Shown one piece after another: positions 4,384 to 59,331 of a stretch of DNA of 64,000 nucleotides; position 1 is the first letter of the stretch; each line of letters opens with the position of its first letter. The stretch is from Erwinia rhapontici (GTDB taxonomy: Bacteria > Pseudomonadota > Gammaproteobacteria > Enterobacterales > Enterobacteriaceae). Location of the stretch: the NCBI RefSeq assembly GCF_012271765.1, contig NZ_VRKO01000017.1, forward strand, positions 186,001 to 250,000, given 5' to 3'. The translations under genes and the position numbers were made by a program. The notes beneath the pieces were generated by a model. It did not search any database, had not been told where the DNA came from, and worked only from the letters and a program-made list of their open reading frames with translations.

Positions 4384-4981
4384 CATGTTGCCGCCGTCTG
4401 CAACCGACCTTGAGCGCAGACTCGCAGCGGCCTGTAGTGATATGGCAAACCTCAGCGTACCGCTGCGGGATCTGCTTAACCCTGATACCTGCCCTGTGCG
4501 TCTGCTGCCCTATCTTGCATGGTCCTGGTCTGTTGATCGCTGGGATGAAAGCTGGACGGAAAGCGTTAAGCGCAAGGTGGTGAAGGATGCTTTTTATATC
4601 CATCAGCACAAGGGAACCACAACCGCAATCCGCCGTGTTGTTGAGCCGTTCGGTTTTCTGCTGCGCATAACTGAATGGTGGAAGAACGATGAAACCCCCG
4701 GCACGTTTCGACTGGATATCGGCGTACAGGACCAGGGTATCAGTGAAGAAACCTATCAGGAGCTTGAGCGGCTGATCAGTGATGCAAAACCTGTAAGCCG
4801 TCATCTGGTGGGTATGTCGATTAATTTGCAGTCCAGCGGCAGTGTGCCGGTTGCGGCGGCCTGTTATTCCGGGGATGAGCTGACCGTTTATCCGTATATC
4901 AGCGAAGTTATCACCGTTAGCGGCGGCACCTATGGCGCCAGCGCGGTTCACATTATTGACAGCGTGAGAGTAAACGCATGA
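4376..4981 (+). CDS. I: Tail protein I (baseplate wedge)
   Basis: A 201-residue protein of the P2 gpI family, starting MNSMLPPSATDLERRLAAA. The start at ATG 4376, just before the end of J, fits the family N-terminus better than an in-frame ATG at 4364. The central LPYLAWSWSVDRWDESW motif is typical of gpI. It links the wedge to the tail-fibre protein H, whose start overlaps its stop. Confidence 0.92.
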   Translation: MNSMLPPSATDLERRLAAACSDMANLSVPLRDLLNPDTCPVRLLPYLAWSWSVDRWDESWTESVKRKVVKDAFYIHQHKGTTTAIRRVVEPFGFLLRITEWWKNDETPGTFRLDIGVQDQGISEETYQELERLISDAKPVSRHLVGMSINLQSSGSVPVAAACYSGDELTVYPYISEVITVSGGTYGASAVHIIDSVRVNA

Positions 4982-6222
4982 CAACAAAATACTATGCAAT
5001 TCTGACCACCCTGGGCGCGGGGAAGCTGGCAAACGCCGCCGCGCTGGGTACGAAATTACAGATTACCCATATGGCGCTGGGTGACGGTGGTGGCGTGCTG
5101 CCATCGCCGAACGCCAGTCAGACCGCACTAATTGGTGAAAAGCGACGCGCCCCGCTTAACTCACTCAGTGTCGACGCTGCGAACAGCAGTCAGATTATTG
5201 CTGAGCAGGTGATCCCTGAAGACGAGGGCGGTTGGTGGATTCGTGAGATTGGCCTGTTTGATGCTGATGGTGTGCTGATTGCCGTAGCGAACTGCGCTGA
5301 GACGTATAAGCCGCTACTTCAGGAGGGCAGCGGGCGCACGCAGACCGTGCGTATGATCCTGATCGTAAACAGCACTGATGCTGTGACGCTGAAGATTGAC
5401 CCGTCCGTGGTGCTTGCTACGCGTAAATATGTTGATGATTCCGCTGCTGCTATCAAAGTTTATGTGGATGCGCAGAAGGCAAGCCCGGCGTTTACCGGAA
5501 AGCCAACGGCACCGACTGCGGCGAAGGCTGACAACAGCACGCAGTTAGCGACAACGGCATTTGTTAAAAGCGTGACAGCTGACTATGCAACGACGGTAAG
5601 CCCCTCACTGAGCGGCACCCCAACGGCACCAACGGCCCAGGCGGGTAATAACTCGCAGCAGCTGGCAAACACCGCTTTTGTACAGACAGCAATTGCGGCA
5701 CTGGTGTCCGGTTCGCCTGCGGCGCTGGATACGCTGAAAGAGCTTGCGGATGCACTCGGTGGTGATGCGCATTTCTCAACGACGGTACTGAGTGCTTTGG
5801 CCGGGAAAATGGATATCACAAAAAACGGTGCTGATATTAATAACGTGGCTCAGTTTCTTGTAAACCTCGGCCTGGGAGATGCTGCAAAAAGAAGTGTTGG
5901 CTCAGGGGCAGGTCAGGTCCCGGATATGAGTTCATTTTCCAGCAGTATGAGTCCGACGCTTGGCGCGCAGTCTCTGCCGAGTGGTATGAAATTTCAGTAC
6001 GGAACATTTAGCGTAAGCGCTTCGAGTGCATCAACGACAACGGTCACGTTCAAAGAGGCATTTATTAATACATGTATCATGATCATACCCGTTTCATACG
6101 GAGGTTCTAATAATCAGATCGGTTTCGAGGCTGGTAGCTTGACGAATGTCAGTGGCTTAATCACAAAAGGAACTGGCGATACCTCCGCTAGATCAGGCAT
6201 TTATCTTGCAATAGGTTACTAA
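4978..6222 (+). CDS. H: Tail fibre protein gpH
   Basis: The 414-residue fibre attaches the phage to its host. The N-terminal ~150 residues (MTTKYYAILTTLGAGKLANAA ... GGWWIREIGLFDADG) are the conserved P2 H baseplate-binding domain. Two collagen-like TGKPTAPTA/SGTPTAPTA repeats of about 30 residues follow. The C-terminal tip (about residue 320 on) is a short beta-rich domain ending ARSGIYLAIGY. The protein is far shorter than P2 H (about 670 residues). The tip-coding DNA is visibly AT-richer than the baseplate genes, which suggests an exchanged receptor-binding end. Confidence 0.9.
   Translation: MTTKYYAILTTLGAGKLANAAALGTKLQITHMALGDGGGVLPSPNASQTALIGEKRRAPLNSLSVDAANSSQIIAEQVIPEDEGGWWIREIGLFDADGVLIAVANCAETYKPLLQEGSGRTQTVRMILIVNSTDAVTLKIDPSVVLATRKYVDDSAAAIKVYVDAQKASPAFTGKPTAPTAAKADNSTQLATTAFVKSVTADYATTVSPSLSGTPTAPTAQAGNNSQQLANTAFVQTAIAALVSGSPAALDTLKELADALGGDAHFSTTVLSALAGKMDITKNGADINNVAQFLVNLGLGDAAKRSVGSGAGQVPDMSSFSSSMSPTLGAQSLPSGMKFQYGTFSVSASSASTTTVTFKEAFINTCIMIIPVSYGGSNNQIGFEAGSLTNVSGLITKGTGDTSARSGIYLAIGY
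5482..5688 (+). repeat. Two direct repeats in the tail-fibre shaft
   Basis: Two copies of a 30-residue unit are encoded here: SPAFTGKPTAPTAAKADNST... (about 5482-5571) and SPSLSGTPTAPTAQAGNNSQ... (about 5599-5688). Each ends in QLA-TAFV. Such units are common in fibre shafts, where copy number changes by recombination. Confidence 0.85.
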
Positions 6223-6223
6223 T

Positions 6224-6652
6224 ATGACGAGCAAAATTTATTTCAGCCCAAAAACGCTTGGTTTTTATAATGAGTCGAATAAGTCAGAATCTGAGGTTGT
6301 AGGGACCTGGCCGCCGGACTTAGTGGAAATAACATTAGAAAAAAGGGAAGAGTTGCTGTCAGCCAGCGGGCTAGGCTACTCAATATCTGCTGATACAGGC
6401 GGGAATCCAATTCTTATTCCACCTCCTGCACGTACCCAGGATGATTTAATTGCTGAAACGAAAGCAAAACGCGACGAACTCAGGGCTAATGCTGATTATG
6501 CGATTGCCCCTTTAGCGGATGCCGTTGACTTGGGGGAAGAGACTGAAGAAGAGATCGTATTGCTGAAGAAATGGAGGCAGTATCGTATTGCTCTGAACCG
6601 TCTGGAACTGTCTGTTGCACCAGAAATAACATGGCCGAAAATACCAGAATAA
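6224..6652 (+). CDS. G: Tail fibre assembly chaperone gpG
   Basis: A 142-residue protein directly after H. The C-terminal half, KAKRDELRANADYAIAPLADAVD ... EEEIVLLKKWRQYRIALNRL, is the conserved tail-fibre assembly signature, and it ends with WPKIPE-type residues. It helps H trimerise. The N-terminal half is variable and AT-rich, as expected for a chaperone that co-evolves with the fibre tip. A strong hairpin terminator begins at its stop codon. Confidence 0.9.
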   Translation: MTSKIYFSPKTLGFYNESNKSESEVVGTWPPDLVEITLEKREELLSASGLGYSISADTGGNPILIPPPARTQDDLIAETKAKRDELRANADYAIAPLADAVDLGEETEEEIVLLKKWRQYRIALNRLELSVAPEITWPKIPE

Positions 6653-6684
6653 CAAAGGGAGCCGGTTGGCTCCCTTTGTTTTAT
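6651..6684. terminator. Terminator between convergent G and U
   Basis: The sequence AACAAAGGGAGCC-GGTT-GGCTCCCTTTGTT forms a 13-bp perfect stem followed by TTTA on the plus strand. It stops the V-G transcript, and by symmetry may stop the convergent FI-U transcript. Confidence 0.9.
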
Positions 6685-7112
6685 ACAAGTGACAAAATAT
6701 CGTCGAGTGTAATTCCCGCCAGCTTCTCTCGGATATCCTCACTGACTTTTTTCAGACTGAGGGTAAACTCAATCTTCTGTGCTTTACCGTCACTCATAAA
6801 TTCCGTTTTGTTTGTCGTAATCCCGGCAATAACAAACATGCCGTAGATAAAACCGGTGCCTTCAATAAGCGGCCAGGGCTTGCCACCGTAAGCCATCGTT
6901 CGCAGTGCCTCCAGCGACATATCGCCCCCGGTCACTTCCGGGTACAGCGTGCCGGTCAGGGTAATGTTGTCTTCGCCTGTACCGATGTACTGCCATTTTG
7001 CAGACTTCCCTATCCGGTCATTCTTCACATGTCGCCAGGCGGTTTCCTGCTGGAATGACTGATAGGGGATGGTATCAAGCATAAAAATGAACATACCGTA
7101 AGCCATCATCAT
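6681..7112 (-). CDS. U: Tail protein gpU
   Basis: A 143-residue tail terminator of the P2 gpU family: MMMAYGMFIFMLDTIPYQSFQ at the N-terminus and GDMSLEALRTMAYGGKPWPLIEGTG in the middle match the family closely. It starts at 7112 with CAGGGAG upstream, five bases after the T stop, so T and U are one transcript. In P2, U is followed by D on the same strand. Here U ends against the convergent gene G and D lies 5.6 kb away on the other strand. Confidence 0.92.
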   Translation of the reverse strand: MMMAYGMFIFMLDTIPYQSFQQETAWRHVKNDRIGKSAKWQYIGTGEDNITLTGTLYPEVTGGDMSLEALRTMAYGGKPWPLIEGTGFIYGMFVIAGITTNKTEFMSDGKAQKIEFTLSLKKVSEDIREKLAGITLDDILSLV

Positions 7113-7118
7113 GGGGTG

Positions 7119-10100
7119 TTACTCCCTGTCTCTGAGTTGTGAGCGTTTACGTGTTTCGGATTCGCGCATCGCACTTCTTAATTCGTCTCTGACCATTCGA
7201 GCGATCTCTTTAGCGTCATGCCTTTCTGCACCGTTAAAGTGGATAGTCAGGTAAATATCGCCCACTCCTTTATCGAGCATGGCCGGATCTGGCCGTGCTG
7301 TAGCGGTTACCGGAACAGGAACGCCGGGCAGATTTGACCGTGCTGGCCATCCCGTCACATTGCTGGCAAAACCAGAAACAGCGTTGCCGAGTCGGCTGGT
7401 GAGTGACTGCGCCTGACTGTGTGCAGCTGCTATCCGGGGTTCTGCATACGAGCCGATCACAGGCATCACCGGCGGGTGCTTTTTGAAGACAATCTCGCCC
7501 AGCTTTTCAATCGCTGCGGGCTGTGGCATTTCGCCCGGGCCCGACCCGGCATTTTCTTTCTTACCTTTTCTGTCTTTTTTGGACAGATTCGGGCCGCTTA
7601 ATTCGGCAGTGGGTACAGGGGCAACCACAGGCGGAGGCGTCGTTGTTTTTGGAGCTGCGGGTTTAGGTGCATTGTCGCCAGCGGCTTTGATTGCAGGAGC
7701 TGAAGGTTTCCACTCCTGCGCGATCATTTTTTTCTGTTTGCTGTCCCACACGTAAACGACGGGTTTTTTCGCCTGAGGGGCTACGGCATCCATCGTACCG
7801 GCCACTTCTTTCGCCGCGTTAGCCGCTTCAGGAATCGCACCCAGTTTTTTCAGCAGCCAGCCGATGCCCTCAGCCACTTTCAGAATAACGCTGACAACGC
7901 CGGAGATTGCTTTTCCAACGATTTCACCGAATGCCCGGCCAGCTTCAGTACATTCACGTAGCGTCTCAGCGGATGCGTTTACAGGCTCAAACAATTGCTT
8001 AAACCAGTTCCACACCCGACTGATCGCGTTGCCGATGCCGTCGAAAATAGGCGCCAGCGGAGCAAACGCCTGTTTAACGGGAGCGATAGCGCTGATAAGG
8101 CCTGACCAGAATCCGCTGAAGAAAGATTTAATGGGTTCCCAGTAACGCCAGATCATCAGTGCCGCACCGGCCAGCGCTGCAACAAGTAGGCCAATCGGGC
8201 TGAGCAACACGGACAGGCCGCCGCCCAGCACCGTCAAAACGGTGCGCCCCACGCTGAGGAGCGTGCCAAAACCACCTGTTGCTAATGATCGCAGGCCGTT
8301 GCCGAGCGCTGCCAGGGCGGTACGCGGTGACGTAAACAGGGTGGTAAGTGCTGAGCCGGTTGAGCTTCCCATGCGGGAAACCATACCGATGCCATTACGG
8401 CCAGTTGCAAGGATGCTGCTGCCGAGGTTGCTGGCCGCTGAGCCAGCGGAGCGGAAGATAGGTAACCAATCTTTGACGCTGCGCCCGGTGCTACTGAGTA
8501 GCGGGCCGAGGTTCTTCAGTTTTGACGCCATGCCGCCCACAGAAGGGAGCAGGCCGCCGAAGCCCCGCCCACCGGTCAGCATCGACAGGCTGAGACGCAC
8601 GGCGGCCATCGGTAGCAGGATACTGGCAACGGCCAGCGCCAGTGAACCAAGCACGGCAAGGGCAACGCCCACGGCTACGGCGACTTTCAGCAGCGTGGCA
8701 ACCAGGGCGGGATTTGCTTCAGCCCATGCACGGAAGCGCTGGATCATCTTCGTTGCATAACCCATGACTTCCATCGCCGGGCCGCGAAGGGTTTCACCCA
8801 GGCTGCTGAATGAGTTTTGCATCGCTGCTTTAGTGGTCATCCACTTCGCGTCTACGGAGTCCAGGTTGATATCTGACTCGCGTTTCATTGAGCCTTTAGC
8901 GGCTTCCCCGTTCACCAGTTTCAACTGGCGGTACAATTCAGGCAGGTTGTTTGCCAGCTTCTGCGCGGAGCCGCCAAACTCTTTGCCGAAAATCTGCGTT
9001 AGAACGGAGGACTGATCGGACGCGGGTAATTTCTTGACCTGTTCCAGCACTGTCAGGATCGTGCCCATCGCATCAACGGGCATACGCTTCTGAATCTTCT
9101 CAGCGCTCAGACCAATAGCGTCAAGCCCCTGCATAAAGTTATCGCTCTGCTGCGTAGCGATAGACAGTTCGCGAACCATCGCATGTGTTGAGCTGGCGGC
9201 AATTTCCGGCGCAGCGCCCAGCGTCAGAAAGGTGGATGCCAGCGCGGAGGCTTTGCGGTAGTCGAGCTTGTCGGCATCGCCCCCGATGCGTTGCAGGACG
9301 TCGATAATGTCCGAACCTTTCGATTTGGCGTTGTCGTCCAGGTAGTTCAGGACGTCACCAAGCTTCTCAATTTCCTGGGTGGGTATGCTGTACAGGCCTG
9401 CAATTTTCCCCAGGCTTTCCGATAGCTCGCTTGCCGGGAGTTCAAAAGCGGTGGATGCCATCGCGGCGGTATTGGCAAACGCCAGTAAATCGGCTTTCTG
9501 CTTTTCCCACGGATCGTCACCATTGGCCGCGCCCATGCGTGCGCCACCTTCAACCAGGGCGGCATAGTCTTTCGCGCCATTCTCCATCGGCAGGCGTTCG
9601 CTGGCTTCTTTAATGGCCTTCTGCATCTCATAAAATTGCGCGGTACGATTGCCGTTATCATCGCGCATCCCGTTAACCTGTTTTGCCACACCCTTCATTG
9701 AGTTTTCAAAGCTGGCATAACTCGTAATCAGGCCCACTACCGGGGCGGCGATGGCTGCACCGGTAGCCATCATGCGCACCCCGCCGCCCTCGAGTTTTTC
9801 CCGGGTTTCTTTCGCGTGTTGATACTGCTGCTGCGCCCGGGTGACGGCAACTAATCTGCGCTGCTGTTCGGATAACTGTCGGTTATAGGCCTGCGTTCGG
9901 CGCGTGATCTGGTCTGTTGCGGTGCTGCCTCCCTTTAGCAAAACACCGTGTTGCATCAGTGATGAACGGAGGCTGCTAAGTTTGGCTTTTTCTTCATTGT
10001 GGGCGCGGGATAGCTGGCGCACTGCGTCAGACTGGCTTTTGAGTGCCGCTGTCTGTGCGTCGGTACGCTGTTTAGCCGGGCCGAATGATGCGCGGAGTTC

Positions 10101-10325
10101 TTCTGATTTCTTGCGGGCTTCAGCCAGCTGACGTGCAGTGGTTTCCGATGCTTTCGACAACCGGTCAAAACTGGCTGCGTTGCGCTCCATCCCCTTCATG
10201 CTGGTCTGAGTGGCTTTAATCTGTGACGCCAGAGAGGCGGCGCTTTTTTGCGCCGCGCTCACTGGACGGGAGAGGTTGTTGATAGCGCTGAAGGCTACCC
10301 TGATGCTTAAATTGCGATCTGTCAT
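7119..10325 (-). CDS. T: Tail tape-measure protein gpT
   Basis: This 1068-residue protein sets tail length and threads the tail tube. Residues 1-170 are coiled coil with many Gln and Lys (SLASQIKATQTSMKGMERN). A TP901-type core follows (NSMKGVAKQVNGMRDDNGNR). Hydrophobic segments lie near residues 541-578 and 695-728, and a Pro-rich linker (TTTPPPVVAPVPTAELSG) near 885-905. The start overlaps the stop of the E' reading frame, as in P2. It is longer than P2 gpT (815 residues), so the virion tail may be longer. Confidence 0.93.
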   Translation of the reverse strand: MTDRNLSIRVAFSAINNLSRPVSAAQKSAASLASQIKATQTSMKGMERNAASFDRLSKASETTARQLAEARKKSEELRASFGPAKQRTDAQTAALKSQSDAVRQLSRAHNEEKAKLSSLRSSLMQHGVLLKGGSTATDQITRRTQAYNRQLSEQQRRLVAVTRAQQQYQHAKETREKLEGGGVRMMATGAAIAAPVVGLITSYASFENSMKGVAKQVNGMRDDNGNRTAQFYEMQKAIKEASERLPMENGAKDYAALVEGGARMGAANGDDPWEKQKADLLAFANTAAMASTAFELPASELSESLGKIAGLYSIPTQEIEKLGDVLNYLDDNAKSKGSDIIDVLQRIGGDADKLDYRKASALASTFLTLGAAPEIAASSTHAMVRELSIATQQSDNFMQGLDAIGLSAEKIQKRMPVDAMGTILTVLEQVKKLPASDQSSVLTQIFGKEFGGSAQKLANNLPELYRQLKLVNGEAAKGSMKRESDINLDSVDAKWMTTKAAMQNSFSSLGETLRGPAMEVMGYATKMIQRFRAWAEANPALVATLLKVAVAVGVALAVLGSLALAVASILLPMAAVRLSLSMLTGGRGFGGLLPSVGGMASKLKNLGPLLSSTGRSVKDWLPIFRSAGSAASNLGSSILATGRNGIGMVSRMGSSTGSALTTLFTSPRTALAALGNGLRSLATGGFGTLLSVGRTVLTVLGGGLSVLLSPIGLLVAALAGAALMIWRYWEPIKSFFSGFWSGLISAIAPVKQAFAPLAPIFDGIGNAISRVWNWFKQLFEPVNASAETLRECTEAGRAFGEIVGKAISGVVSVILKVAEGIGWLLKKLGAIPEAANAAKEVAGTMDAVAPQAKKPVVYVWDSKQKKMIAQEWKPSAPAIKAAGDNAPKPAAPKTTTPPPVVAPVPTAELSGPNLSKKDRKGKKENAGSGPGEMPQPAAIEKLGEIVFKKHPPVMPVIGSYAEPRIAAAHSQAQSLTSRLGNAVSGFASNVTGWPARSNLPGVPVPVTATARPDPAMLDKGVGDIYLTIHFNGAERHDAKEIARMVRDELRSAMRESETRKRSQLRDRE

Positions 10326-10770
10326 TCTTCCTGTCCATTACGGGCCAACGCACGCTTATGCCAGGTAAGAAATTCTCCCACTGGCATCGTGTCGTAGGTT
10401 GACGGCTGCCAGTGGAAAATTACGGCGATATCTGCGATTAGTTCGTCAGTATCAACCGTCGGACAGCGGATTACGCTTCTGGCGTTGCTGTCTCGTTCGG
10501 TTCCGATTGCGGTGCCAAAAAATCAGCGATACCCGCCGCGAACTGCGCAAAATCAGACGGGTGAAGCGCGGAGATTTCCACTTCAGTCAGTGCCGGGCTG
10601 GTGACACGTGGCAGCAGTTTGATCAGGGAGTCAACATCGCTGGTCATGACGTCATACAGCTTCAGGCCTCGCAGTGAGCCGGTCTGCTTCATAGCGTCAG
10701 TGATCGTGACCTCTTTGATAGTGCCTGTGCCGCGAGTAATAGGAGCGAACAGTGGAATAGATTTTGCCAT
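10322..10770 (-). CDS. E+E': Tail chaperone gpE+E' (programmed -1 frameshift product)
   Basis: P2 makes a second chaperone by a -1 frameshift near the end of E. The same signal is present: the heptamer T TTT TTG (complement of 10516-10522) in the E frame. After slipping, the reading frame passes the E stop and continues through DELIADIAVIFHWQPSTYD ... RALARNGQEE to a stop at 10322-10324, overlapping the T start. That C-terminal block is the conserved E' domain (ADIAVIFHW). The E' segment has no good start of its own. The frameshift is inferred from the conserved heptamer and open frame. Confidence 0.85.
10471..10770 (-). CDS. E: Tail assembly chaperone gpE
   Basis: The 99-residue zero-frame product begins MAKSIPLFAPITRGTGTIKEV and contains LRGLKLYDVMTSDVDSLIKLLPRVTSPAL, the phage tail assembly chaperone family 10 pattern. 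It coats or assists the tape-measure protein before tube assembly. It lies between FII and T as in P2. The TTTTTTG heptamer falls near codon 84. Confidence 0.92.
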   Translation of the reverse strand: MAKSIPLFAPITRGTGTIKEVTITDAMKQTGSLRGLKLYDVMTSDVDSLIKLLPRVTSPALTEVEISALHPSDFAQFAAGIADFLAPQSEPNETATPEA

Positions 10771-10831
10771 GATAAAAATCTCTTAAGTGCCGGGCGCGGT
10801 ATTGCCCCCGGCGGGGTTGTTTGCTGGCTGG

Positions 10832-11344
10832 TTACAGGCCGATGTTTTTGCGATGTTCTTCCAGCTTGTCTACGCCATCGACTTTCCAGACCATGTTGAG
10901 CGCATCCAGCTCAAAGGCTTCTTCGTTGTTGATTGTGATTTTGACGTATGTGTTTTTCAGCGTGTATTTATGCGAGGTGTTATCACCCTGTTTCGCGCTG
11001 CCCCAGTCCATTTCCTGCACACGTCCCCGCGTCTGAATTTCGCAGGGAATGGACAGGCCGGTTGTATCGTCAAGGTATGAACCGGCAAAGCGCAGCTGCA
11101 CGCCGTCAATCGTTGCGCCGTAAGTTTTTAGCAGACGTGCATCCAGACCCCCGAGTGTGATTTCCATATCAGCGGCCCCGGCTTCAAATCCGAGATGAAT
11201 GGACACGCCCATTGGCATTCCGGCACCCTGGTAATCTTCGGTCTTGCGGGACAGCTTTGGCGTGGTGATCTCTTCAGCAATGCCGAGGAAGCTGTCGCCG
11301 TTAACGAAGGTATTCCAGGAAAAAAGTTTGCTTGGTAATCCCAT
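10832..11344 (-). CDS. FII: Major tail tube protein gpFII
   Basis: 170 residues, with the P2 FII landmarks: KLSRKTEDYQGAGMPMGV, VQLRFAGSYLDDTTG, and the ending VDKLEEHRKNIGL, which is nearly identical in P2 (VDRLEQHRRNIGL). It polymerises into the tube through which DNA passes. It starts 12 bases after the FI stop and is co-transcribed with it. Confidence 0.95.
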   Translation of the reverse strand: MGLPSKLFSWNTFVNGDSFLGIAEEITTPKLSRKTEDYQGAGMPMGVSIHLGFEAGAADMEITLGGLDARLLKTYGATIDGVQLRFAGSYLDDTTGLSIPCEIQTRGRVQEMDWGSAKQGDNTSHKYTLKNTYVKITINNEEAFELDALNMVWKVDGVDKLEEHRKNIGL

Positions 11345-11355
11345 GATTTTTTTCC

Positions 11356-12543
11356 TCAGGCCTGGGCGAACGTTGCGATGTACTCATCCGTGAATTCCTG
11401 AATTAACTCCAGGTGTTCCAGCGGCGGCACGGGCGTGTATTTATAGCGAATGGTGGCTTTACCATCGCGCAGGGCTTCGGGGGTGTTATCCCCGGCGTAA
11501 TCAAACCAGCACTCGAAGCCCAGCAGGCGGTTGGCCGTCACCAGCGCCGCGCCTTTCCGGTTGATGCCATCCACAATGTCCTTAATCAGCGACGGCGTGA
11601 GCGGCTTATCAATGTACGGGAAGTGCGCTTCAGCGATGGTGTCTGCAAGGATTTGCGCTGTGCGGGTATAGCTTTCGAAGAAGTAGGTTTCAGCGTCACA
11701 GGTACGCGATCCCCAGAAGCGGAAGCCGTTACGCTTAATCAGCGTGGTGATGCCTTTGCTGTTGAGATCGTCAGCGTCGGTATCGTCACCCTGGAGCGTC
11801 CAGTAAACGTCTGCGGAGATACCCAGGACGTTTGATACAGGCACGTTCGACAGGACTTTATGCCAGCCCTGTTCGGCATCGATTTTCGCACGAAGGCCGA
11901 TGGCGTAGGCCGCAGCTGGAATGGTTTCATTCGCAGCGGTCAGGCTGTTATAGGCGATGAAGTCAGGGTAAATCACCATGATTTCACGTTCGCTGAAGTC
12001 TTCGCGGTACGTTTTTGCCTCTGCGATGGTTTTACAACCGTTCGCGCCGACGTAAGCGAAAGCCCGCAGCTTTTCAGCGATAACGGCCAGCTGGAGCGCC
12101 ACGACTTTTGTATCGAGTCCCGGTACTGCAAGCACGCGGGGGTGCTCACCGGTGCGCGGTTCTGCGGTCAGTAGTGCAAACATGCCGGTATAACGACCAT
12201 CTGCACCGACGCCGCCAATAGCCAGCTGATCCTGCGTAGGGGCAGTTTCACCTTCAGAAGGAATAACCTTTGATGCATCCGCAACGCGGACCACAACCGT
12301 TTTCGGGCTGGCCTGGTCAGAGATGGCTTTCAGGGTGGTGTAGAGCGTGCCGCTTTTCCCGGCTTTACCGAGATAATCCCGGACACGCGTCAGTAATACT
12401 GGCGTGTTTAGCGGGAAGGTAACGGCGTCAGCATCGTCAGCGGTACAGACCACGCCGATAACGGCGGTATCAATATCGCGGATCATTGTGCTGAGGTCGG
12501 TAGTTTCTTTGACCCGGACGCCGTGGTGGTAATTTTCACTCAT
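11356..12543 (-). CDS. FI: Contractile tail sheath protein gpFI
   Basis: A 395-residue sheath protein. MSENYHHGVRVKETTDLSTMI at the start, LRAKIDAEQGWHKVLSNV in the middle and YTPVPPLEHLELIQEFTDEYIA at the end match P2 FI along the whole length. It is the first gene of the leftward FI-FII-E-T-U transcript. The start at 12543 has AGAGG a few bases upstream. A TGT-N12-ACA palindrome lies about 80 bases upstream, at the distance expected for an Ogr-activated late promoter. Confidence 0.95.
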   Translation of the reverse strand: MSENYHHGVRVKETTDLSTMIRDIDTAVIGVVCTADDADAVTFPLNTPVLLTRVRDYLGKAGKSGTLYTTLKAISDQASPKTVVVRVADASKVIPSEGETAPTQDQLAIGGVGADGRYTGMFALLTAEPRTGEHPRVLAVPGLDTKVVALQLAVIAEKLRAFAYVGANGCKTIAEAKTYREDFSEREIMVIYPDFIAYNSLTAANETIPAAAYAIGLRAKIDAEQGWHKVLSNVPVSNVLGISADVYWTLQGDDTDADDLNSKGITTLIKRNGFRFWGSRTCDAETYFFESYTRTAQILADTIAEAHFPYIDKPLTPSLIKDIVDGINRKGAALVTANRLLGFECWFDYAGDNTPEALRDGKATIRYKYTPVPPLEHLELIQEFTDEYIATFAQA

Positions 12544-12614
12544 GCTTTGTTGCCTCTGGTTGATGCGTGCAATACATCATCGTGAAGCGGGGCAACCTTT
12601 TCACGCTGTGGCGA

Positions 12615-12634
12615 TTGTCGCTGGCGGCTGACAA
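12615..12634. promoter_or_regulatory. Putative Ogr/Delta activator box between FI and D
   Basis: TTGTC-N10-GACAA is a perfect dyad containing TGT-N12-ACA, the P2 late-promoter activator consensus (known to be centred near -55). Its centre is about 82 bases from the FI start and 66 from the D start. On the minus strand a TGTATT (complement of 12573-12578) could serve as -10, placing the centre near -55 to -60 of a leftward start. Because the box is symmetric it might also drive D. Confidence 0.7.
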
Positions 12635-12689
12635 CCTGCGCCAGCTGACTGAAGTCCTCACGCGGGCGAGGATGCAGGCAGGGGGATTT

Positions 12690-13802
12690 ATGCTGAACAT
12701 ATTTGATGACGATTTATCACCACAGCCAGCATTTGAGCTGATGGTAAAAGGCGAGGTGCTGACAAGTCTGGATGATCGGTTGATGTCGCTGACGCTGACG
12801 GATAACCGCGGCTTTGAAGCGGACAGGCTGGAGCTGACGATTGATGATACTGACGGGATGGTTGTCATGCCGCCGAGAGGTGCGGAAATCGCTGTTGCTA
12901 TCGGCTGGGCTAATAAGCCTCTGGTTGATAAAGGTGTGTATACGGTGGATGAAATTACCCACCAGGGGCCGCCTGACCGTCTGGTGATCACCGCCCGAAG
13001 TGCGGATTTTCGTGAGGACTTCAACGTTAAGCGGGAATACAGCTGGCATAACATCACCGTGGGGGCGGTGGTTTCCGCTATTGCCGGTCGCTATGACCTG
13101 ATCCCTGCGGTCAGTGCGTCACTGAAGGATGTGGAGATAGACCACGCTGACCAGACCAGTGAATCCGATATCAGCTTCCTGACGCGCATGGCTGAAATGA
13201 TCGGCGCTGTTGCAACGATTAAAAATGGCCGGTTACTGTTTATCGTGCCGGGGATGGGAGTTTCACAAAGTGGCCGCGTGCTGCCGTCGGTAATGATTAC
13301 CCGCGCCAGCGGGGACGGGCATTCATTCCGGGTTGCTGATCGCGATGCGTACACAGGCGTTCAGGCTTACTGGCTTGATCTGAACTTCGGTAAGAAAAAG
13401 CCCACCGCCGTAAAGCGCCGGAAAAAAACAAAGCCAGTGACCGTTACGCCTGCTTCAAGCAAGAAAGAAGGCGATTACGTCGAAGGCGCTGAAGGTAACG
13501 TATTTGTCATACGCAAAACGTTTAAGACTGAGCGGGCTGCCCGGCGTGCGGCGGCGGCCAAATGGGCTGAGCTTCAGCGCGGCGCAGCTGAATTTAGCAT
13601 TACTCTGGCACGCGGCCGCGAGGATTTGTACCCAGAGTTGCACGCGAACGTGAGTGGCTTTAAACCAATGATCGATGCGGCAGACTGGGTGATTAACCGG
13701 GTGACTCATACCATTGACGATAACGGATTTATGACCGGGCTTGAGCTGGAGGTGCGGATCACTGGCTGGGAAGGTGCTGAAGAAACAAGCGAAACGGAAT
13801 AG
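12690..13802 (+). CDS. D: Tail protein gpD
   Basis: A 370-residue late control D / phage tail hub protein that forms the ring between tube and spike. The family match begins at MLNIFDDDLSPQPAFELMV, then LTSLDDRLMSLTLTD, GVYTVDEITHQGPPD and WVINRVTHTIDDNGF. The start at ATG 12690 has GGGGG just upstream; the frame stays open back to a GTG at 12567, but those 41 codons do not resemble gpD. A Lys-rich insert (KKKPTAVKRRKKTKP) lies near residue 240. It is separated from its usual upstream neighbour U by the inverted block. Confidence 0.92.
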   Translation: MLNIFDDDLSPQPAFELMVKGEVLTSLDDRLMSLTLTDNRGFEADRLELTIDDTDGMVVMPPRGAEIAVAIGWANKPLVDKGVYTVDEITHQGPPDRLVITARSADFREDFNVKREYSWHNITVGAVVSAIAGRYDLIPAVSASLKDVEIDHADQTSESDISFLTRMAEMIGAVATIKNGRLLFIVPGMGVSQSGRVLPSVMITRASGDGHSFRVADRDAYTGVQAYWLDLNFGKKKPTAVKRRKKTKPVTVTPASSKKEGDYVEGAEGNVFVIRKTFKTERAARRAAAAKWAELQRGAAEFSITLARGREDLYPELHANVSGFKPMIDAADWVINRVTHTIDDNGFMTGLELEVRITGWEGAEETSETE

Positions 13803-13862
13803 ATTATTTTTCGGAGTTATCCTAAAATGCTGGCGAGTTTAATCAGATAGTGGTGAGGTTTT

Positions 13863-14102
13863 ATGTTCACCTGCCCGAAATGCAACGCCAGCGCCAAAAC
13901 CCGTACCAGCGTAAGAATCAGCGAGATGACTCGCCGCAGTTACCACCAGTGCAATAACCTTGCCTGCGGTGCCGCGTTTACTACTCTGGATTCCGTAGAG
14001 CATTTTCTGAACCAGGTCAGCCCGGTAGCCGCGCACAGCGTGCCGAAAGATATTTTTCCCGGCTCCCACTATGGGGATGACCAGTTAGCCTTATCACTCT
14101 GA
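13863..14102 (+). CDS. ogr: Late gene activator Ogr/Delta
   Basis: A 79-residue zinc-binding activator of phage late promoters. It begins MFTCPKCNASAKTRTSVRI and has the Ogr cysteine pattern C4-x2-C7-x22-C30-x4-C35, followed by AAFTTLDSVEHFL. In P2, Ogr contacts RNA polymerase and binds TGT-N12-ACA sites. One such site is present at 12615-12634. The gene lies 60 bases after D, as in P2, and is followed by a strong terminator. Confidence 0.95.
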   Translation: MFTCPKCNASAKTRTSVRISEMTRRSYHQCNNLACGAAFTTLDSVEHFLNQVSPVAAHSVPKDIFPGSHYGDDQLALSL

Positions 14103-14161: not shown

Positions 14162-14869
14162 ATGTCTTTATTGGCCCAAATGTATGAACCTGAGCGCAGG
14201 AGCTTTATTGAAAAACATAATTTCTACAGCCAGCAGTGCAAGACACGGCTAGTTGCTCAGTTCAGTGATATTGATGGCGAGGCTGATCAGTACTTTAAAG
14301 AACATGCTGAGTCCTTGCAGCCTGCCTTTGCAAATAATGAGGACGTGGATTGGGGGAGTTTCTGGGATCAGGTGCGTGAGGAAGCGTACTCTCATTACTC
14401 TATGCTGGAAGATATGAAAAAAATCACTCTCCTTTCCGTTACGGCAGCGATTTATCACAACTGGGACAAGGAGTTCCGAGGATGGTTAGTGAAAGAAATG
14501 AGGTTTAGCTTCTCGGAAGATAGTACTGCACAGATTTGGAAGGCCAGCATAGCCAAACTATGTGAATTTATGGCGAGTAATGGTTGGGATGTTGGATGCT
14601 CTAGCCCTATGAAAAAAATTATTGTCATGCATCATCTTGTAAATGCTTATAAACATGGAAGCGGGCCTTCATTTGAGAAAATCTGTGACCATCATCAAGA
14701 GTATCTTGACGAGCACGTTGTCGAGGCTTCACTTAATGGGCGACGTTATAAAGCGAAATATGATGACATAAGGGTCAAAGAGAGCCAGTTCGATGATTTT
14801 TCTGATGCAATCACAGCCTTTTGGCAGTCGGTGCCAGCCAGAATTGAATGGCTACAAGAGAATGAATAA
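14162..14869 (+). CDS. Unidentified prophage cargo gene
   Basis: This 235-residue soluble protein is not one I recognise. It starts MSLLAQMYEPERRSFIEKH with a strong AGGAGG at 14151-14156. It has no signal peptide or membrane segment and is rich in aromatic and acidic residues. A possible motif is VNAYKHGSGPSFEK (Asn-x-x-Lys-His-Gly) near residue 160. The base composition is visibly AT-richer than the flanking phage genes. It lies between the ogr terminator and the attachment site, a place where P2 relatives carry accessory (lysogenic conversion or defence) genes. There is little room for its own promoter after the ogr terminator. Function unknown. Confidence 0.8.
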   Translation: MSLLAQMYEPERRSFIEKHNFYSQQCKTRLVAQFSDIDGEADQYFKEHAESLQPAFANNEDVDWGSFWDQVREEAYSHYSMLEDMKKITLLSVTAAIYHNWDKEFRGWLVKEMRFSFSEDSTAQIWKASIAKLCEFMASNGWDVGCSSPMKKIIVMHHLVNAYKHGSGPSFEKICDHHQEYLDEHVVEASLNGRRYKAKYDDIRVKESQFDDFSDAITAFWQSVPARIEWLQENE

Positions 14870-14918: not shown

Positions 14919-14971
14919 TTGAGTGAAACAAATCCTTTTGTTTCATTGGTTTATTGTCAATTAAATGACAT

Positions 14972-15010
14972 ATCCCTGTCTTCCCCCGCCATGATGGCGG
15001 GGTTTTTTTT
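14972..15010 (+). ncRNA. cpxQ: 3' end of CpxQ-like sRNA / cpxP terminator at attR
   Basis: ATCCCTGTCTTCCCCC (14972-14987), then a CCCCGCC-ATGAT-GGCGGGG hairpin and eight T. From memory this matches the second seed region and terminator of E. coli CpxQ, the small RNA released from the cpxP 3' UTR. cpxP itself is not here and would lie beyond the other end of the prophage. This is therefore the right half of the interrupted locus, or a copy carried in the phage core. It precedes fieF, the normal neighbour of cpxP. Confidence 0.65.
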
Positions 15011-56711: not shown

Positions 56712-56753
56712 ATGACCCCTGACACCCTTCTTGTATTTGTAACTTTAATATCC

Positions 56754-56872
56754 GTCATACTTGAAGCTGCAACTACGTTGGCTGCTCTCACTCACCCGAA
56801 TCACTGACTAATGTAAGCTCATCGGGACTCGCTCTTTTGCCGCCTTGCTGCAACTTCAACTATTTTGGCTAT
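56754..56872 (-). repeat. ERIC element upstream of ppc
   Basis: Reading the minus strand it runs GCAGCAAGGCGGC ... CCCGATGAGCTTACAT ... GTGATTCGGGTGAGTGA ... CAACGTAGTTGCAGC. It matches ERIC (enterobacterial repetitive intergenic consensus) landmarks with several substitutions. The 370-base gap 56712-57082 also contains the ppc promoter region and nothing else that I recognise. Confidence 0.85.
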
Positions 56873-59182: not shown

Positions 59183-59197
59183 TTATAAACCTTTCCC

Positions 59198-59312
59198 GAA
59201 AAATTTCGGGTTGCAGCAAGGCGGCGACGGAATGAATCCCCGGGAGCTTAGTTCACTAAGTGACTGGGGTGAGTGTAGGAAGCCAACGTAGTTGCAGCGT
59301 GAAAGATGATGG
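59198..59312 (+). repeat. ERIC element between argB and argG
   Basis: TGCAGCAAGGCGGC ... TGAATCCCCGGGAGCTTA ... TAAGTGACTGGGGTGAG ... CCAACGTAGTTGCAGC is a clear ERIC sequence matching the classical ERIC1R/ERIC2 primer sites. It is inside the presumed arg transcript and ends about 20 bases before the argG start. Confidence 0.92.
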
Positions 59313-59331
59313 GAAATTGAAGGAAGAGACA

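Follow-up and report, generated by a model that had tools for sequence, protein, structure and literature searches.

Does the reversed block of tail genes in a P2-like prophage of Erwinia rhapontici represent an accident of one strain or an inherited gene order, and how would a late region divided in this way be transcribed? The window, a stretch of 64,000 nucleotides (contig NZ_VRKO01000017.1, positions 186,001 to 250,000), covers the right-hand portion of a P2-family prophage, whose G and D genes are on the plus strand and enclose an FI-FII-E-T-U block on the minus strand (Table 1). An earlier note, made from the sequence alone, had described this region as a P2-like prophage with FI to U reversed relative to P2, which the ORF strands, the Pfam matches and the matching att cores bear out; the breakpoints that it placed at G|FI and U|D are supported by the ORF layout. 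The genes are also intact, as it had stated: all listed late genes are open by ORF and Pfam analysis, and FI, FII, E, T, U and their flanks contain no interrupting stop codon.

Table 1. Late genes, predicted regulatory sites and right attachment core of the prophage, in window coordinates.
Feature	Position	Strand	Basis and remarks
H	4978-6222	+	ORF; plus-strand neighbour of G
G, tail fibre assembly	6224-6652	+	ORF; Pfam Caudo_TAP, 87 bits; closes the plus-strand late operon
Bidirectional terminator, AACAAAGGGAGCC-GGTT-GGCTCCCTTTGTT	6651-6680		Between convergent G and U
U, tail protein	7112-6681	-	Pfam Phage_P2_GpU, 143 bits
T, tape measure	10325-7119	-	Pfam PhageMin_Tail, 71 bits; 1068 aa open
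E, tail assembly chaperone	10770-10471	-	Phage_TAC_7, 21.7 bits (below the Pfam cut-off of 25); sits between FII and T
FII, tail tube	11344-10832	-	Pfam Phage_tube, 178 bits
FI, tail sheath	12543-11356	-	Pfam Phage_sheath_1, 91 bits; 71% identical to the SEN5 sheath
Predicted FI promoter, -10 core ATGAT	12576-12580	-	+45 to +49 from box centre; predicted start about 12569
Ogr-type activator box, TGT-N12-ACA	12616-12633		ATTGTCGCTGGCGGCTGACAAC, including two flanking bases per side; common to FI and D
Predicted D promoter, -10 core AGGAT	12669-12673	+	+45 to +49 from box centre; predicted start about 12680
D, baseplate hub	12690-13802	+	Pfam Phage_GPD, 59 bits; divergent from FI
ogr, late activator zinc finger	13863-14102	+	Pfam Ogr_Delta, 59 bits
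Right att core, TATCCCTGTCTTCCCCC	14971-14987		17-bp direct repeat; left copy at L219:2874

The positions of the two att cores give an element of about 32 kb. Leftward on the same contig lie homologues of P2 int, cox, Q, P, O and N, on strands that match P2 and with Q-P divergent from O-N (identity to P2: Q 51%, P 49%, O 38%, N 46%, Int 48%, Cox 45%). Together with the P2-type FI, FII, E, T, U, D and ogr, of which E scores under the curated cut-off, these genes assign the element to the Peduoviridae (P2-like phages). Close to the end of E, a TTTTTTG run recalls the P2 E/E' frameshift site. A 235-aa ORF that separates ogr from the right att core (14162-14869, plus strand) matches no Pfam family and is possible lysogenic cargo.

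A megablast search with window positions 4978-14102 returned no match among 50,697 phage records; as megablast misses lower identity, relatives were sought at the protein level. The FI protein matched 374 phage records, 18 of which were compared, among them 15 close P2-like phages. Six of these 15 have the P2 order (P2, PSP3, Fels-2, ENT90, YenM 56.17, and AP3). The inverted order was found in all nine GenBank phages compared whose FI is at least 59% identical to that of the window: SEN5, KSP20, 3LV2017, P88, phiT5282H, P88_4B11, ST16-OXA48phi5.4, Shae_phiSM, and 500465-2. These nine belong to the genera Senquatrovirus, Reginaelenavirus, Xuanwuvirus, Novemvirus, Reipivirus, and Gemsvirus, with KSP20 carrying no genus name.

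P2, PSP3, and Fels-2 share with the window prophage the gene set, the internal order of FI to U and a pF-type box equally far from FI, but have FI-U running parallel to V-G and D. SEN5 (FI 71% identical) resembles the window in that D is divergent from FI and U convergent with G, but differs in an estimated 139-base gap before V, which contains a box-like site, and in its tail fibre genes. The other eight inverted phages (FI 59-63% identical) have the window's order over the stretch compared; unlike in the window, an invertase is annotated at U|G in P88, P88_4B11, Shae_phiSM, and 500465-2, and ST16-OXA48phi5.4 contains other extra genes. SEN4 and SEN5 (Senquatrovirus) are described as plaque-forming, with myovirus particles (PMC5261728), so a phage with the inverted order is infectious. 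Serratia PP4, which is likened to these phages through its reported kinship with P88, SEN4, and KSP20, is described as releasing P2-like particles but forming no plaques (PMC9826266).

Across 216 loci from the window, phage records, and viral and genome contigs, 118 are inverted and 82 canonical, D was not found in 16, and no third arrangement of D and FI occurred; partial stretches were called from D versus FI, and these counts are not natural frequencies, the loci having been picked by FI similarity (best 80 per search). FI identity to the window ranges from 56.1 to 100% in inverted loci and from 49.2 to 57.8% in canonical ones. Two viral contigs (L018 and L038), with FI 96% and 98% identical to that of the window, have the same inverted order. 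J, I or W, seen in 67 inverted loci, always lie downstream of FI on the opposite strand; in canonical loci they lie upstream on the strand of FI in 60 and upstream on the opposite strand in 2 (L110 and L111). A family sample of 198 genomes gave an FI match in 69 (E up to 0.001, remote matches counted). Among the best loci from this sample, D stands beside and opposite FI in all eight others with 59-70% FI identity, and adjoins FI in none of the 21 with 54-57% identity (L233-L253), for which flanks of 1.5 kb leave the order uncallable. The window's own genome harbours a second P2-like prophage (L254; G000:C11:7501-27500) of canonical order, so that two architectures coexist in it. Near the right end of the window, a stretch of about 123 bp occurs twice on opposite strands (56749-56871 and 59196-59318) and is 76% identical to L254:17074-17199.

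The reversed block is thus a real, inherited order of a whole P2-like branch rather than a fresh rearrangement. The earlier note had wavered between a stable variant architecture and a lineage-specific rearrangement; the architecture is stable and not particular to this strain, every callable locus with FI at least 59% identical having the same order. This comparison of orientations, which the note had proposed, brings its reading close to what it had itself named as grounds for abandoning it, namely an arrangement common to all close relatives and already described. Public records of named genera show this order plainly, and it is in that respect already a known kind. A statement of the FI-U inversion or of a two-way FI/D promoter was not found in searches of open-licence literature, including passages of PMC5261728, PMC9826266, PMC6456863, PMC6379469, and PMC10612066, and relevant papers may lie outside that literature; in PMC5285337, none of the orientation terms looked for occurs.

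In P2, D closes the F operon, and reversing FI to U would consequently leave it without the F-operon promoter. The Ogr-type box that the earlier note had placed between FI and D is present, and it appears from its surroundings to serve both directions, a point which that note had not foreseen. Near FI, P2 and most P88-like loci lack the strict TGT-N12-ACA pattern, and half-sites were scored instead for this reason. In 56 non-redundant inverted loci, the mean matches of the two half-sites are 5.34 and 4.48 of 6 (3.30 and 2.48 in the stretch further upstream); the corresponding values in 70 canonical loci are 3.77 and 3.67 (3.01 and 3.04 further upstream). The half of the box that faces D is weak in P88-like phages.

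After score and edge filters, 115 of the 118 inverted loci remained, and 45 below 85% mutual identity were aligned on the box. On both of its sides these 45 loci, which share ancestry, contain a mirrored motif of A at +45, A at +48 and T at +49, with frequencies of 0.96, 0.96, and 0.96 on the FI side and 0.84, 0.73, and 0.78 on the D side. Written as ANNAT and counted in the same inverted alignment from which it was derived, so that canonical loci and P2 promoters are the independent comparisons, the motif starts at +45 on the FI side in 43/45 inverted loci; on the D side it starts at +45 in 31 and at +46 in 8 more (39/45), and is missing from 6. The background at any one offset is 1.49 and 0.63 of 45. 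Among 31 canonical loci, pre-filtered for a box score of at least 8, ANNAT occurs at +45 in 16 on the FI side, and on the side away from FI at +45 in none and at +46 in four. With a box score of at least 7, the canonical counts are 24/59 on the FI side, and 0/59 at +45 and 7/59 at +46 on the far side.

The spacing of these cores was judged by the P2 promoters pO and pP, for which the P2 record annotates a single activator site; both starts lie at +56 from the centre used, which makes +45 and +49 positions -11 and -7 of a -10 element. P2 promoters fit ANNAT in part: at +45, pO reads AAACT and pP AGCCT, which keep the A and the T but not the second A, and pF has AAAAT at +46. The P/O box of the window prophage, ATTGTCGCTGAACGCTGACAAT (L219:16296-16313), is identical to its FI/D box at 18 of 22 bases and is accompanied by AAGAT towards O and AGCCT towards P. 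In the FI/D intergenic region, both features expected of Ogr-dependent promoters, a box centred about 56 bases upstream of the start together with a -10 core, were found at the level of sequence; the predicted leader of D comprises only about 10 bases. While the conserved box and the mirrored -10 cores are computed from the alignments, the promoter activity and Ogr binding that they suggest are what we infer from them. Since the -10 core is mirrored in inverted loci and lacking at +45 on the canonical far side, a single activator site probably serves FI and D together and drives a late promoter in each direction, in the manner of pO/pP. The pair in P2 drives the packaging and head operons, whereas in the window prophage a second such pair would drive FI-U and D-ogr.

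The alternative that survives best accepts the inverted order as real and old, but has D and ogr transcribed from a promoter independent of the FI box. Such a promoter would be in keeping with the -35 and -10 elements annotated for P2 ogr itself, with the weak D-side half-site of P88-like phages and with the six inverted loci that lack a D-side core. It would leave unexplained the mirror -10 core that 39 of the 45 inverted loci have at the same distance from the box, and that is found at +45 on the far side in none of the 31 canonical ones, and we consider it improbable, though deserving of some weight. A single shared site for FI and D remains our preferred reading, and the rest of the late region is consistent with it. 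Among loci in which both S and V were found, the estimated S|V gap is 15 bases or less in 27/32 inverted loci, including the window prophage, and in 0/32 canonical ones; the gap that houses pV in P2 is thus closed in most measurable members of the inverted group. With this gap closed, the late genes here probably run from two shared boxes, and the likely wiring would comprise four operons: P-Q, O to G, FI to U, and D-ogr.

At the opposite end of the block, the earlier note had seen a terminator common to the convergent G and U genes, and folding agrees with it: the hairpin reaches -22.8 kcal/mol on the plus and -23.3 kcal/mol on the minus strand, and 0/200 shuffles were as good on either. Stems of at least 8 near U were found in 24/92 inverted loci and in 9/92 shuffles, and because a hairpin after U is not general in the inverted set, the terminator is claimed for the window prophage only. 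A TGT-N12-ACA match that spans the end of U and the terminator (6677-6694) is probably due to chance. The 7-base pair AACAAAG/CTTTGTT, which had been put forward as a border repeat, does exist, but the left copy coincides with the outer part of the terminator stem, and when 2000 border pairs were drawn at random from the window, 424 had at least one inverted 7-mer in common; it is no trace of the original inversion event.

Phylogenetic analysis showed that a single branch splits the two orders in the FI tree (90 rows, support 100) and in the D tree (81 rows, support 97, with long-branch warnings), and one change of order suffices in the FII (90 rows) and U (86 rows) trees. FI and D of the window both fall inside the inverted group. 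In an FI tree with three distant rows, the inverted set (20 of 51 rows) forms one side of a branch, with support of 100/100 and in 100% of 200 bootstrap trees; the deep branches of this tree are weak, and the three distant rows do not group. In the distant phages PHL101 and VP58.5 and the Zymomonas element, D follows FI on the same strand, with other genes placed differently (e.g. T in PHL101), and among named loci canonical phages come from more host groups than inverted ones. For these two reasons, the inverted order is taken as derived, with which the tree with distant rows agrees as far as its weak deep branches allow. Gene order and its single-branch distribution are computed; the succession of evolutionary steps, and how the inversion first came about, we infer. 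It may have begun with a chance invertase event in an ancestor.

A segment that is still invertible, with FI-U flipped by site-specific recombination, would find precedent in the annotated serine invertases of P88-like phages (at U|G) and of Fels-2 and a Yersinia phage (near G|FI). Such invertases, however, are known to act on tail-fibre ends, the FI, FII, U, and D trees contain no switch of orientation inside the group, and the borders have no significant repeat. The earlier note had seen no invertase gene, and tblastn (E up to 1e-3) likewise detected no relative of the P88 or Fels-2 invertases in the window and 20 kb to its left; the window prophage thus lacks the expected combination of an invertase gene with inverted crossover sites at its two borders, and we regard an active switch as very unlikely. 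A recent inversion confined to this strain, or an assembly error, for which only the different order of P2, PSP3, and Fels-2 might speak, is less likely still, given that L018, L038 and the 118 inverted loci of the 216 have the same order and that the inverted sequences form one group for FI as well as for D.

The genes beyond the block have a different history. The trees of W (55 rows), V (53 rows), and I (57 rows) require 3, 5, and 10 changes of order, respectively. A first J tree (59 rows, 10 changes) contained long branches and was therefore rebuilt with 47 rows, after removal of 11 rows on long branches and of one that did not pass the filter for position and strand; the new tree requires 9 changes, and a single inverted group is rejected (AU p 2.3e-7). 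An inverted viral contig (L139/L258) and a canonical Rouxiella silvae prophage (L133) are 98% identical in DNA over 4989 bp, a stretch that begins 20-23 bases inside J and ends within the last ORF before U in the inverted one, and despite this common cassette V, W, and FI of each are of its own type. The order is thus a property of the FI-D module, whereas the J-to-fibre cassette passes from one order to the other, the baseplate/fibre genes (J, I) being exchanged by phages of the two kinds.

Taken together, we consider it likely that the FI-FII-E-T-U operon turned once, long ago, relative to the other late genes, with one dyad Ogr site now serving FI and D and a two-way terminator closing the G|U junction. 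The order would have stayed viable because FI and D came to diverge from one dyad-symmetric Ogr/Delta-type site, at which the bound activator would fire a late promoter leftward into FI-U and a mirror-image one rightward into D and ogr, a design that would match P2's own pO/pP pair. With more reserve, we also lean towards a wider account, in which this single ancient inversion founded a large Enterobacterales branch of P2-like phages and survived through the two-way Ogr dyad, the late regulon consists of two shared-box pairs with pV mostly dropped, and the J-to-fibre cassette still passes up to the junction at which the two orders differ.

For the family, these results mean that the P2 gene order is not universal, and that the direction of one operon is a marker by which P2-like phages divide into two groups. 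The baseplate/fibre cassette moves between phages with differently wired late regions, and whether a single Ogr site fires both FI and D has become a testable question.
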